A DNA stretch of 35,565 nucleotides, from contig JAPPGV010000100.1 of assembly GCA_028821235.1 (NCBI GenBank), positions 1 to 35,565 on the forward strand, written 5' to 3'. The position numbers were made by a program, and so were the translations under genes. The number at the start of each line of letters is the position of its first letter. Within the stretch, counting starts at the first letter, position 1. The DNA is from a bacterium (GTDB lineage: Bacteria; Actinomycetota; Acidimicrobiia; Spongiisociales; Spongiisociaceae). Below the pieces are notes generated by a model. The model was not told the origin of the DNA. It saw only the letters and a program-made list of their open reading frames with translations, and did not search any database. Below, piece by piece: positions 10,103-26,560 of the stretch.

Positions 10103-10118
10103 GCCGCCGGCCGGCGGC
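10103..10118. terminator. GC palindrome between convergent genes
   Basis: A perfect 16-base palindrome, GCCGCCGGCCGGCGGC, lies between the aldehyde dehydrogenase stop and the stop of the convergent SIMPL-domain gene. It could serve as a bidirectional terminator hairpin. There is no T-tract, which is common in high-GC actinobacteria. The role is inferred from position only. Confidence 0.4.
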
Positions 10119-10984
10119 TACGTCTTGGGTCTTAGCTCGAAGAGCATCGACACCCGGGACGTGACCACCTCGCTGCCACCGAACACGGGCGTGGGCACGG
10201 ACGCCGACTCCGCAACCGCCGCATCGTCGCCGGAGAGCCTCTGAACCAGGTACGGATCGAATGCGGTCCCGGGGGTGATCCTGACGATCCGCACGATCTC
10301 GTACCCCATGTGCGCGACGATGGCCTGGGCCGTCGCCTGGGCATCGTCGATGGCATCGAGCAGGGCCAGGCGCTCGAACTCGGCGCGGCGGGAAACGGTG
10401 AAGTCCAACCCGTCGAAACGGACGTTGTCTCCCCCGCTATTGATCACCATGTCGACCAGCCCGCCGGCGAACCCGGTGCCGCGGATGGCGATCGACAACC
10501 GGTTCTCGTAGCGGAAGCCGCGAGAGACCCGGCCCTGTTCGGTCCAATCGAACTCCTCCTCGATACGGATGCCCACCGTCTGCAGGCCGTTCGGGGAGAT
10601 GCAGGTCGGAGGCGCGGTGTGATCCGCCGTCTCGGGCTCCGTCTTCGTGCAGTTCTCGGCGACCGCGTCGGCTATGGCCTGGACCGACTTGTTCCCGTCG
10701 GACACTGCGGTGATGAGCGAGTCACGAAGGACGCTCACCGTGAACCGGCCGATGGCGCCGTCGTAGCTGACGCTGCGCGAGCCGACGCCCTCCACCGCCA
10801 GTTCTGTCAGTTTCGGCTCTGCCGACTCGGCCTCGCCGGGCATGGTCGTGACCGTCCCTTCCCCCTCTCCTGCTCGCACCGCAGGCAGGAGTACGGCTGC
10901 GCCGACCAACGCCGCCACGATGATCGCTACCAACATCACCCTGACCACCCGGGGCAGGCCCGGAACCCGTATCGCTTCCCTCAT
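10118..10984 (-). CDS. SIMPL (DUF541) domain protein, membrane-anchored
   Basis: This 288-residue protein has one N-terminal membrane segment (VVRVMLVAIIVAALVGAAVLL) followed by an exported SIMPL/DUF541 domain. The domain starts near LTELAVEGVGSRSVSYDGA and includes the typical helix FERLALLDAIDDAQATAQAIV and a final strand VVTSRVSMLFELRP. Two cysteines (CTKTEPETADHTAPPTC) could form a disulphide in an insertion. The start is at 10984: GGAGG lies six bases upstream on the minus strand (10991-10995). A GTG-type extension to 11023 is possible but lacks such a site. SIMPL proteins are periplasmic or surface proteins of unclear function. It is divergent from the probable selenoprotein, with a 129-base gap. 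Confidence 0.85.
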   Translation of the reverse strand: MREAIRVPGLPRVVRVMLVAIIVAALVGAAVLLPAVRAGEGEGTVTTMPGEAESAEPKLTELAVEGVGSRSVSYDGAIGRFTVSVLRDSLITAVSDGNKSVQAIADAVAENCTKTEPETADHTAPPTCISPNGLQTVGIRIEEEFDWTEQGRVSRGFRYENRLSIAIRGTGFAGGLVDMVINSGGDNVRFDGLDFTVSRRAEFERLALLDAIDDAQATAQAIVAHMGYEIVRIVRITPGTAFDPYLVQRLSGDDAAVAESASVPTPVFGGSEVVTSRVSMLFELRPKT

Positions 10985-11113
10985 CTCGATCCTCCAGATC
11001 GTTGCCGACCGGCGCTCGACCATGTCGATGCTCGATTCCCACGTCCTCGAAACCTAGCGTTACCGGCCGGGTATCCTGGCGCGGCACTCACTCTCCAGGT
11101 ACCCGGAGCGGAC

Positions 11114-11998
11114 TTGCGGCTGATCCCTTCGGTCTTAGTTATGGCGCTGCTGGCCGGCGCGCTCCTCTCCTGCGGTGGAGACACCACCGGTCCTGCCACC
11201 ACTCCGGCACCCCCGGATGCGGGCGCGGCCGCCGCCACCAGCCCGGCTCCGGAAGAGCCGACCACCACCCTTGCGGATACGGCGGCGACCGTGGCGACTA
11301 CATCGGAAGCGCCCGCTACGACCACCGGAACGACCGAGCCGCAACCGACAACGACTACAGCGGCGGCCACCACATCCACCGCGACCACCGAGGCCTCCGA
11401 GGAGACGGCTGCCACCACCGAACCCTCCACCACCACGACCGCGCCACCCGAGACAACCACCACGTCCGCCGCCACATCCACCACCACGACCGTGCCGGCC
11501 GAGACCACCACGACCACCGAAGTGCTCGTCACGACTACCGCGATACCGGCGACTACCACCACCGCGCCACCCCCCGCCACCGCTATCTCCGATGACGTGC
11601 CCGACATCGAGATGTTCGACGCCGCCACCGGAGAGCTGGTCAGCCTGCGATCGGTCGTCAAGGGTGAGAAGCCCCTGATGTTCTGGTTCTGGTCCCCCTT
11701 CTGAGAGACGTGCCGGGAGGAAGCCCCGGGCATCGAGCAGTTCGCTCGGCAGAACTCCAACCGACTCACCGTCATCGGGATCGGCGGTGTCGGCACCCTC
11801 GAGATCGCGCAGGAATTCGTGGTCGAAAAGGGAGTCACGTTCACGGCGCTCTGGAGCGAGTCGCGCGACGCCTGGGAGTACTACGGGATGAACAGCACGT
11901 CCGACTTCATGCTCCTCGACAGGTTCGGCAACCGCCTGACCGAACCCGAGCCCTACGACGAGCAACTCGTCATCCGGCTATTGGACGAACTCGCCTGA
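11114..11998 (+). CDS. Thioredoxin-like lipoprotein, probable selenoprotein (UxxC; in-frame TGA at 11702)
   Basis: The frame continues through a TGA at 11702-11704 and on to a second TGA at 11996-11998. The first part is a lipoprotein: MRLIPSVLVMALLAGALLSC, with the lipid-carrying Cys at 20, then about 140 residues rich in Thr, Ala, Pro and Glu that would span the cell wall. A redoxin-type domain follows (DVPDIEMFDAATGELVSLR, EKPLMFWFWSPF). The TGA (residue 197) comes right after FWFWSPF and is followed by ETCREEAPGIEQFA. In TlpA-like thioredoxins this position is the first Cys of CxxC, so the motif reads U-E-T-C. All 97 codons after the TGA are open and keep the fold (RLTVIGIGGVGTLEIAQEF, FMLLDRFGNRL). 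A TTG start at 11114 with GGAG at 11105 gives the best signal peptide; an ATG at 11141 is the alternative. A true nonsense mutation remains possible. Confidence 0.8.
11702..11732 (+). promoter_or_regulatory. Candidate bacterial SECIS element next to in-frame TGA
   Basis: Six bases after the TGA (11702-11704) a hairpin can form. TGCC at 11711-11714 pairs with GGCA at 11729-11732. After one bulged G (11728), GGG at 11715-11717 pairs with CCC at 11725-11727. The seven-base loop is AGGAAGC, with a G in its second position. Bacterial SECIS elements lie just downstream of the UGA, inside the coding region, and carry a G early in a small apical loop. The spacing here is slightly short, so this is support rather than proof. 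Confidence 0.5.
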
Positions 11999-14599: not shown

Positions 14600-14995
14600 T
14601 CAGCAGCCGCAGACGACTTTGCGGCCCGACTGGGCGTTGTCGCCCTCGGTGGGGTAGCCGTCTCGCTTCCACCAGTCGAGACCGCCGATCAGTTCCCGTA
14701 CCTCGAAGCCCAGCATGAGCAGCTTCAGCGCGGTCTTGGTGGAGGCGTTGCAACCGATCCCGTCGCAATAGCAGACGTAGGTCCGTGACCGGTCCAGCGA
14801 GGCCGTCGACTCGGCGTCGATACCCCGGTGCGGCAGGTTCATCGCGCCCGGTATGTGCTCCCGGACGTAGGCCTCGGCGGAGCGGCCGTCGACCACGACC
14901 AACGGCTCGCCGTTGCCCAGCGCCTCGTGGACGTCCCACGAGTCCATCTCGAAGGCGAGCTTGCTCTTGTAATGGTTCAACTGGTCGGTGCTCAT
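14600..14995 (-). CDS. Rhodanese-like domain protein
   Basis: This 131-residue single-domain rhodanese begins MSTDQLNHYKSKLAFEMDSW and has VVDGRSAEAYVREHIPGAMN (the conserved D-R-S...HIPGA element). The active-site loop is YVCYCDGIGCNASTKTALKL. The loop contains Cys residues for persulphide transfer, and the C-terminus has another pair in VVCGC. Rhodaneses move sulphane sulphur (or selenium in some relatives) between small molecules and proteins. I prefer the ATG at 14995, with GAGGAA just upstream; in-frame starts at 15013 and 15157 are less likely because they lack a binding site or overlap the cyclophilin gene. It is first in the operon with DUF1272 and the sterol methyltransferase. Confidence 0.82.
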   Translation of the reverse strand: MSTDQLNHYKSKLAFEMDSWDVHEALGNGEPLVVVDGRSAEAYVREHIPGAMNLPHRGIDAESTASLDRSRTYVCYCDGIGCNASTKTALKLLMLGFEVRELIGGLDWWKRDGYPTEGDNAQSGRKVVCGC

Positions 14996-15141
14996 CAGGT
15001 TCCTCGTGCTCATCCGACCAGGCACCATAGACCCCCGCTCGCACAATGCCCAACGCCATGGCCGGCGGGCCGGGCCAGCGATCAGCACGGTTAGGGTTAC
15101 CCGGTCCCTACGCCCCAGCCACCGACACTCGAGGAGTCCAA

Positions 15142-15702
15142 GTGACCGACGTACCATGCCCCGCGGCCGACGGGTCCAGCCCCGCCCGCCGCCAGTTCCC
15201 GAAGCCGCCCCCGATGTGCATCGACCCCGCCAAGTCCTACACCGCGGTGATGGACACGTCGATGGGGTCGATCACCATCGCCCTCGATGCCGCCGCCGCC
15301 CCCCTTACGGTGAACAACTTCGTGGTGCTGGCCCGCTACCACTACTACGAAGGCGTGATCTTCCACAGAATCATCGAGGGCTTCGTCTGCCAGGGCGGCG
15401 ACCCCACCGGCTCGGGTCGGGGCGGCCCCGGCTACCGCTTCGCCGACGAACTGCCGCAGCCCGGCAGCTACGAGCTGGGTTCGCTGGCCATGGCCAACGC
15501 GGGGCCCGACACCAACGGCAGCCAGTTCTTCATCATCAGTGGCTCCGACGGCACCCGCCTGCCACCCCACTACTCGCTGTTCGGCAAGGTGACCGACGGC
15601 CTGGACGTGGTGGACGCCATGCAGAGGGTGCCGACCGCCCGCAACGACCGCCCGCTCACCCCTGTCACCATCAACTCGGTTACGATCACAGAGTCCGACT
15701 GA
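15142..15702 (+). CDS. Peptidyl-prolyl cis-trans isomerase, cyclophilin type
   Basis: This 186-residue cyclophilin follows a short proline-rich N-terminus. The motifs YYEGVIFHRIIEGFVCQGGD, GGPGYRFADEL, SLAMANAGPDTNGSQFFI and HYSLFGKVTDGLDVVDAM are the cyclophilin core. The catalytic Arg is in FHRII, and the Gln and Phe of the active site are in SQFFI. It should speed folding by isomerising X-Pro bonds. It has no signal peptide or membrane segment, so it is cytoplasmic. I chose the GTG at 15142 because GAGGAG lies at 15131-15136, five bases upstream; the ATG at 15046 is in frame but unsupported. It is divergent from the rhodanese operon. Confidence 0.92.
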   Translation: MTDVPCPAADGSSPARRQFPKPPPMCIDPAKSYTAVMDTSMGSITIALDAAAAPLTVNNFVVLARYHYYEGVIFHRIIEGFVCQGGDPTGSGRGGPGYRFADELPQPGSYELGSLAMANAGPDTNGSQFFIISGSDGTRLPPHYSLFGKVTDGLDVVDAMQRVPTARNDRPLTPVTINSVTITESD

Positions 15703-26041: not shown

Positions 26042-26560
26042 TCAAACCTCGCACGCGGCCAACCCGGCCGGAGCGGTGAAGATGCCGTTGGCGTACTGCA
26101 GCTCCCGCACGTAGCAGATGACCCTGTTCAGGTCCTCTGGTGACAGGCCCGGCACCGGCTCCATGTCCCCGAAGTTCCAGTGGTGCTGGGGCGATCCCGT
26201 CTCCACGGCACGGACGAAGCTGAAGTCGGCGTGGTGGCCCGGCTCGTATATCTTGTGCACCAGCGGCGGGCCCTGCGACGACCCGCCTGCGGTGGGGCCG
26301 TGACACTCCGAACAGTTGGCCGTGAACAGTTCGCCGCCCTGCCGGGCCACATCCGAGAGTTCCGGCACCGAAACCGACACCGTCTCGGCGCCGGAGGCAT
26401 CAGCGGCCGAGTACTCGGCGTCCTCGCCCCCCGAACAACCAGCCAGCAACACCACGACCAGGACAGCCGCCGGGACCGAGCCGCGCCCGGGGTGTGGCCG
26501 GCCACCGACGATCCGTCGGGTGCCCGCTCGTCGCCGGACCGACCGGGTGTTGAGGGTCAT
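26042..26560 (-). CDS. Cytochrome c lipoprotein
   Basis: This 172-residue exported protein has an Arg-rich N-terminus, then the hydrophobic stretch VPAAVLVVVLLAGC with the lipid-anchoring Cys42. A single haem c site CSECH (Cys83, Cys86, His87) lies in GGELFTANCSECHGPT. Met133 in FGDMEPVPGLS is the likely axial ligand. This is a class I cytochrome c domain, anchored outside the membrane to carry electrons. It is divergent from the VWA lipoprotein (147-base gap, no clear promoter recognised) and upstream of the methyltransferase. The C-terminal coding sequence (PAGLAACEV) has a partial echo at 25084-25110. Confidence 0.88.
   Translation of the reverse strand: MTLNTRSVRRRAGTRRIVGGRPHPGRGSVPAAVLVVVLLAGCSGGEDAEYSAADASGAETVSVSVPELSDVARQGGELFTANCSECHGPTAGGSSQGPPLVHKIYEPGHHADFSFVRAVETGSPQHHWNFGDMEPVPGLSPEDLNRVICYVRELQYANGIFTAPAGLAACEV

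Follow-up and report, generated by a model that had tools for sequence, protein, structure and literature searches.

A very probable selenocysteine-containing, surface-anchored redoxin of the DsbE/DsbF-like group in Acidimicrobiia

The window, that is, the whole analysed stretch of 35,565 nucleotides from a sponge-type marine actinobacterium, carries on its forward strand a gene whose product is very probably a surface-anchored redox protein in which an in-frame stop codon is read as selenocysteine (Sec). The features of this gene were assigned as follows, with the basis of each assignment in parentheses.

11105..11108, forward strand: GGAG, probable ribosome-binding site, 5 nt before the TTG start (sequence)
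11114..11998, forward strand: predicted selenoprotein gene starting with TTG, 294 amino acids if the TGA codes for Sec (sequence; conserved start region)
11114..11173, forward strand: putative lipoprotein signal peptide with lipobox LLSC and lipid-modified Cys20 at 11171-11173 (inspection; same layout in relatives)
11174..11584, forward strand: Thr/Ala/Pro-rich stalk (sequence, genus comparison)
11585..11995, forward strand: thioredoxin-fold (Redoxin) domain (Pfam, AlphaFold2, nearest structures)
11702..11704, forward strand: TGA, read with high probability as Sec, first position of UxxC (homologues, Cys alignment, SelB co-occurrence, SECIS)
11711..11713, forward strand: TGC, second (resolving) Cys of UxxC (sequence, homologues)

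The start region (ADLRLI) was kept among the relatives in the genus, with a stop codon shortly upstream in L016 and L020. The TGA at 11702-11704, residue 197, was in frame with the TTG at 11114, and 97 sense codons followed it before a TGA stop at 11996-11998. A stop-free run of 97 random codons at this GC-rich composition has a probability of 0.14; the open stretch taken alone is weak evidence, and homology and conservation carry the case. The first-pass annotation had placed the TGA at the first Cys of a CxxC motif and had seen a redoxin pattern continuing to a normal stop. Both observations were borne out: the codon aligned with the Cys (TGC or TGT) of 36 thioredoxin-like relatives, and the read-through protein, with the active-site motif FWFWSPF-U-ETCREEAP, matched Redoxin (3.1e-10) and AhpC-TSA (6.8e-10) in Pfam over a region spanning the TGA. 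Its PF08534 score was 40.4 bits (cut-off, 26.6), the UxxC motif also being present. Elsewhere UGA is an ordinary stop, terminating 21 of the 29 genes of the window, the Sec redoxin gene included. Standard annotation cuts the protein in half at the active site, and the catalytic half is lost unless UGA is taken as Sec.

Several neighbouring genes were conserved with the Sec redoxin gene, namely a SIMPL (DUF541) gene, a DAO-type FAD oxidoreductase gene and a methyltransferase gene. All of them lie on the other strand, so that the Sec redoxin gene is probably transcribed alone. The SIMPL gene (10118-11023, reverse strand) diverges from the Sec redoxin gene, next to which it was found in most of the genus loci examined. 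Two further genes of the reverse strand were observed: one for a rhodanese-domain protein at 14600-15157, a few kilobases away, and one at 26042-26560 for a small cytochrome c that looks like a lipoprotein (LLAGCSGGE).

Close homologues were found at ten loci of Acidimicrobiia and unclassified bacterial MAGs, with 47-98% identity over the domain. In all ten, which came from independent MAGs, TGA stood at the active-site codon and TGC three codons on; this rules out both a read error and a nonsense mutation private to the home genome. Downstream of the TGA, dN/dS against six relatives was 0.06-0.40. When 296 Acidimicrobiia genomes were searched with a profile, relatives turned up in 107 of them and the TGA form in 52. 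Alignment with the Cys homologues, as had been proposed at first, showed TGA in 91 and TGC or TGT in 36 of the 127 aligned class hits at the first active-site codon; these hits include duplicate records of one gene, without which 77 distinct members with TGA and 36 with Cys remained. The Sec or Cys label required 8 changes on a tree of 109 sequences, compared with 29.2 for shuffled labels. The Sec form was also seen in other actinobacterial families, and the Sec redoxin belongs to a large group spanning much of Actinomycetota. The family is thus large, widespread and under-annotated, and it yields paired Sec and Cys homologues.

Some members of the family showed particular arrangements. One of the 91 TGA hits (L130, 316-585, reverse strand; G279:C36) had a TGA for each of the two active-site residues (WFWAPWUPHURAEAP, UxxU), with Arg in place of cis-proline; it is known from one MAG only. 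Tandem Sec redoxin genes, with TGA in both, were observed at L051 and L079 (G260:C7), and a similar close pair in G007:C80. A Sec gene of the family has a Cys counterpart nearby on one contig (L098, G057:C154); this pair is a natural test of what selenium adds over Cys.

Two hairpins were predicted downstream of the TGA.

11710..11733, forward strand: first GC-rich hairpin, maybe a lower element (RNA folding prediction; misses the SECIS spacing rule)
11734..11748, forward strand: predicted SECIS hairpin, stem CGAGC/GCUCG, loop AGUUC (11739-11743), 34 nt after the UGA (folding, covariation)

The published bSECIS model has a loop of 3-9 nt with G in its first two positions, an upper stem of 4-16 bp and a loop 16-37 nt after the UGA (PMC13188914). 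The first-pass annotation had pointed to a hairpin six bases after the TGA. Such a hairpin was indeed predicted at 11710-11733; however, only some 13 nt separate its loop from the UGA, too few for the published model, and this hairpin was rejected as the main signal, although it may add to the structure. The bacterial SECIS search instead singled out the next hairpin, 11734-11748, whose 5-bp stem, AGUUC loop and 34-nt spacing agree with the model. Both hairpins together had a folding energy of -20 kcal/mol.

RNAalifold on 11 close relatives was uninformative because these vary too little, and a wider set was needed. For the 77 TGA and 36 Cys members, the folding energy of windows around the codon was set against that of versions recoded with synonymous codons. 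Just after the TGA (window from +9 nt), the mean z of the folding energy was -1.84 in the TGA members and -0.09 in the Cys members, and in the TGA members it returned to about zero further downstream. Stems of at least 6 bp following the SECIS rule occurred in 49 TGA members (6.3 expected) and in one Cys member (1.5 expected). Two hairpin arrangements were distinguished: type A, in 51 members including that of the window, with stem CGAGC/GCUCG and a G[UG]-containing loop 34-35 nt after the UGA, and type B (CCUC-GGUC-GAGG, 26 nt after the UGA), in 21 members. Neither was found in any of the 36 Cys members. Compensatory changes were observed in the type A stem, one pair occurring as C-G, U-A and G-C and another as A-U, U-A and C-G; those in the type B stem were similar. 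When the stem partners were slid against each other, pairing in type A fell from 0.89 to at most 0.44, and that in type B from 0.94 to at most 0.58. Furthermore, type A recurred with stems of other letters (UUGCAC/GUGCAA and UCGCGC/GCGCGA, for example) in members from other actinobacterial families, a set not used in finding the pattern. Scanning ten genus genomes for the TGA-plus-type-A pattern gave 18 matches, compared with none for a reversed control pattern; 16 were at genes of the Sec redoxin family and the other two (G008) read alike. Two arrangements within one protein family should be useful for SECIS models.

The home genome is a MAG of 3.6 Mb in 162 contigs, 97% complete. A tRNA-Sec was detected (77 bits, cut-off 47; ARAGORN tRNA-SeC, anticodon tca), as was SelD (L005 1501-2421, G000:C28; 375 bits), which has an in-frame TGA of its own in GGGUASK and a downstream hairpin whose loop, GGUCU, lies 33 nt past that UGA. 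The genome search proposed in the first-pass annotation thus succeeded for selC and selD; selA was not found in this fragmented MAG, and no selB match there reached the cut-off, the top one resembling initiation factor 2 by sequence. Absence of selB, selC and selD from a complete genome had been named as evidence against Sec, but selC and selD are present and the MAG is fragmented. Both selA and selB were above the cut-off in 9/9 congeners and adjoined each other in each, so that one lost stretch could explain both absences, which are probably an assembly gap. Among Acidimicrobiia, SelB occurred in 49 of the 52 TGA-form genomes, 20 of the 55 Cys-only genomes and 114 of all 244 other genomes (Fisher p = 9e-11 for TGA-form versus Cys-only and 3e-11 versus all others, values that overstate independence because the genomes are related).

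These results bear on how the UGA is decoded. If it were a dead stop, arising from a pseudogene, a nonsense mutation or a sequencing error, the open codons after it could have arisen by chance at the probability given above; yet the same TGA recurs in 10/10 close homologues of independent assemblies, dN/dS after it is 0.06-0.40 and the RNA hairpin is conserved. The conserved TGA and the purifying selection downstream already refute this reading, whose probability we consider negligible. Decoding of UGA as an ordinary amino acid (Trp, or Cys via a suppressor tRNA), or a change of the whole code, would be in line with the Cys aligned at this position in the non-TGA homologues. Genome-wide reassignment was rejected, since UGA ends 21 of the 29 window genes, the Sec redoxin gene among them; moreover, a tRNA-Sec, a Sec-type SelD and a SECIS are present and the TGA form tracks SelB. 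We regard ordinary decoding as highly improbable. The identity of the residue as Sec, at first only proposed, is supported by the alternation of TGA and Cys, the tRNA-Sec and Sec-type SelD, the selA-selB pair of the congeners, the co-occurrence with SelB and a covarying SECIS in TGA members only. Taken together, the gene very probably encodes a Sec protein.

The AlphaFold2 model of the domain had a mean pLDDT of 91.9 and a pTM of 0.87. The thioredoxin fold of the "TlpA-like" protein first described was confirmed, but its nearest relatives were actinobacterial DsbE/DsbF and not generic TlpA. The WFWxPxCxxC-type active site, thioredoxin fold and export that mark DsbE/DsbF were all recognized, with the first C replaced by U. 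The cis-proline (QPA) of that group, however, was lacking, Ser (STSDF) being found throughout the genus clade.

11897..11902, forward strand: Thr-Ser codons where relatives have Gln-cis-Pro (STSDF versus xxQPA) (alignment)

For this reason, the protein was not filed as DsbE or DsbF, despite its best match to the DsbE/DsbF group; the domain is probably a DsbE/DsbF relative working like an extracytoplasmic thioredoxin. The cis-Pro was retained in 43 of the 70 aligned Sec members, and some other Sec members had His or Arg. It has been lost several times among Sec members, but Ser also occurs in one Cys member (L204), which weakens cis-Pro loss as a Sec-only trait and leaves the link to Sec only a lead. 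A peroxiredoxin of the TxxU type was considered and rejected: the motif is SPFUETC, with UxxC, and Ser, not Arg, occupies the cis-Pro position.

The N-terminus, MRLIPSVLVMALLAGALLSC-GGD, contained a lipobox by inspection, after which came a stalk of some 137 residues with a high content of Thr, Ala and Pro. This layout of lipoprotein signal and Thr-rich stalk, described already in the first-pass annotation, was conserved across the genus, and inspection likewise pointed to a lipoprotein in most relatives from other families. Within the same genus, a sister group carried SLH domains ahead of the Sec redoxin (Pfam SLH, 3e-14 and 4e-9). These SLH-fused proteins, with N-terminal repeats, were L024, L025, L072-L077 and L023 (a second copy), and their domain order suggests that the cell wall, and not a lipid, holds them. 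We consider it highly probable that the product is a Sec protein of the DsbE/F-like group located outside the membrane.

On this basis, the following mechanism is proposed. The ribosome would read the UGA at 11702 as Sec, with SelB on the hairpin 11734-11748 and tRNA-Sec. The product would then be exported and lipid-anchored at Cys20, and the Thr-rich stalk would keep the DsbE/DsbF-like UxxC thioredoxin domain away from the membrane. As expected from thioredoxin-fold chemistry, the nucleophilic attack would come from Sec, and the Cys of the UxxC motif, three residues further along, would resolve the mixed selenenyl-sulfide. The protein may reduce or isomerise disulfides of exported proteins, or reduce their oxidised thiols; its electrons would come from thioredoxin in the cytoplasm and reach it by way of the membrane protein CcdA.

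The reductive role is predicted tentatively, at slightly under an even chance. CcdA (DsbD_TM) was found in 10/10 genus genomes and VKOR in 0/10, which favours electron supply from inside and hence reduction or isomerisation; however, the evidence for the direction of electron flow is thin, and CcdA may serve only other clients. Furthermore, a general thiol-disulfide oxidoreductase would not usually have Ser in place of the cis-proline. DsbE of M. tuberculosis, the nearest relative to have been characterised, reportedly works differently from Gram-negative DsbE, to go by a paper's title, so that a reductive role cannot be read across. The same Sec protein might instead be a disulfide-forming oxidase, as the name of the mycobacterial DsbE/DsbF implies, and its best structural matches are indeed DsbF (Z 18.1) and DsbE/MPT53 (Z 17.5). 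Against this stand the lack of VKOR in the ten genus genomes and the presence of CcdA in all of them; a VKOR-coupled oxidase, in the manner of mycobacterial DsbA, which is recharged by the oxidase VKOR (PMC12421883), was rejected for the genus on this account. An oxidase role is possible but unlikely.

In the active site of the same Sec protein, Ser in place of cis-proline might leave Sec and Cys as ligands for a metal or metalloid. The cis-proline of thioredoxins hinders metal binding, and Ser was present in all genus-clade members, some Sec members elsewhere having His or Arg instead. Most Sec members nevertheless retain cis-Pro (43/70 aligned), the Cys member L204 likewise has Ser, and peroxiredoxins carry Arg there for another purpose (PMC2757866). 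Metal binding appears improbable. A broader and still rather doubtful conjecture is that the sequences represent an undescribed, phylum-wide family of surface Sec thioredoxins on lipid stalks or S-layer (SLH) repeats, in which loss of cis-proline in the sponge-symbiont genus would have led to a non-ordinary chemistry, for example binding or reduction of metal, metalloid or peroxide at the surface. Reduction or isomerisation by a surface Sec redoxin remains the reading that we prefer.

The 2026 catalogue of UxxC families contains a "Redoxin family protein" (PF08534; representative HEU0032618.1), a "Thiol-disulfide isomerase-like protein" (cd02966) and a "Prx-like thiol:disulfide oxidoreductase" (PF00578; UxxC or UxxU) (PMC13188914, Table 1). 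Since UxxC selenoproteins of the Redoxin, TlpA-like and Prx-like types are catalogued there, proteins of this kind are already known. The text of that review has no mention of Actinobacteria or Acidimicrobiia, and neither surface anchoring nor SLH fusion was seen in it (PMC13188914). A literature search, which covered few subscription papers, found no account of the Acidimicrobiia group, surface anchoring or SLH fusion, and the NCBIfam selenoprotein models gave no match. The less expected parts are the surface anchoring, the SLH-anchored sisters and the missing cis-proline.

Compared with the catalogued UxxC families, the Sec redoxin has the same domain families, the UxxC motif and Sec in the first position. 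Like ResA, CcmG and TlpA, it carries its thioredoxin domain outside the membrane to which it is anchored (Z 16-17), but the identity is lower (16-18%), Sec replaces Cys and, unlike in those systems, no cytochrome-c-maturation gene was found among the neighbours scanned. The closest structure was M. tuberculosis DsbF (Rv1677, PDB 3IOS; Z 18.1, 2.1 Å over 131 residues), followed by DsbE/MPT53 (Rv2878c, PDB 1LU4; Z 17.5) and after these by ResA and CcmG, and the sequence profile gave the same top two (1.5e-16 and 1.9e-14, respectively). The Sec redoxin shares with both a WFW[AT]PW-type active-site motif, export and the thioredoxin fold. It differs from them in the absence of VKOR from its genus and in having Sec for the first Cys, a long Thr-rich stalk and Ser for cis-Pro.
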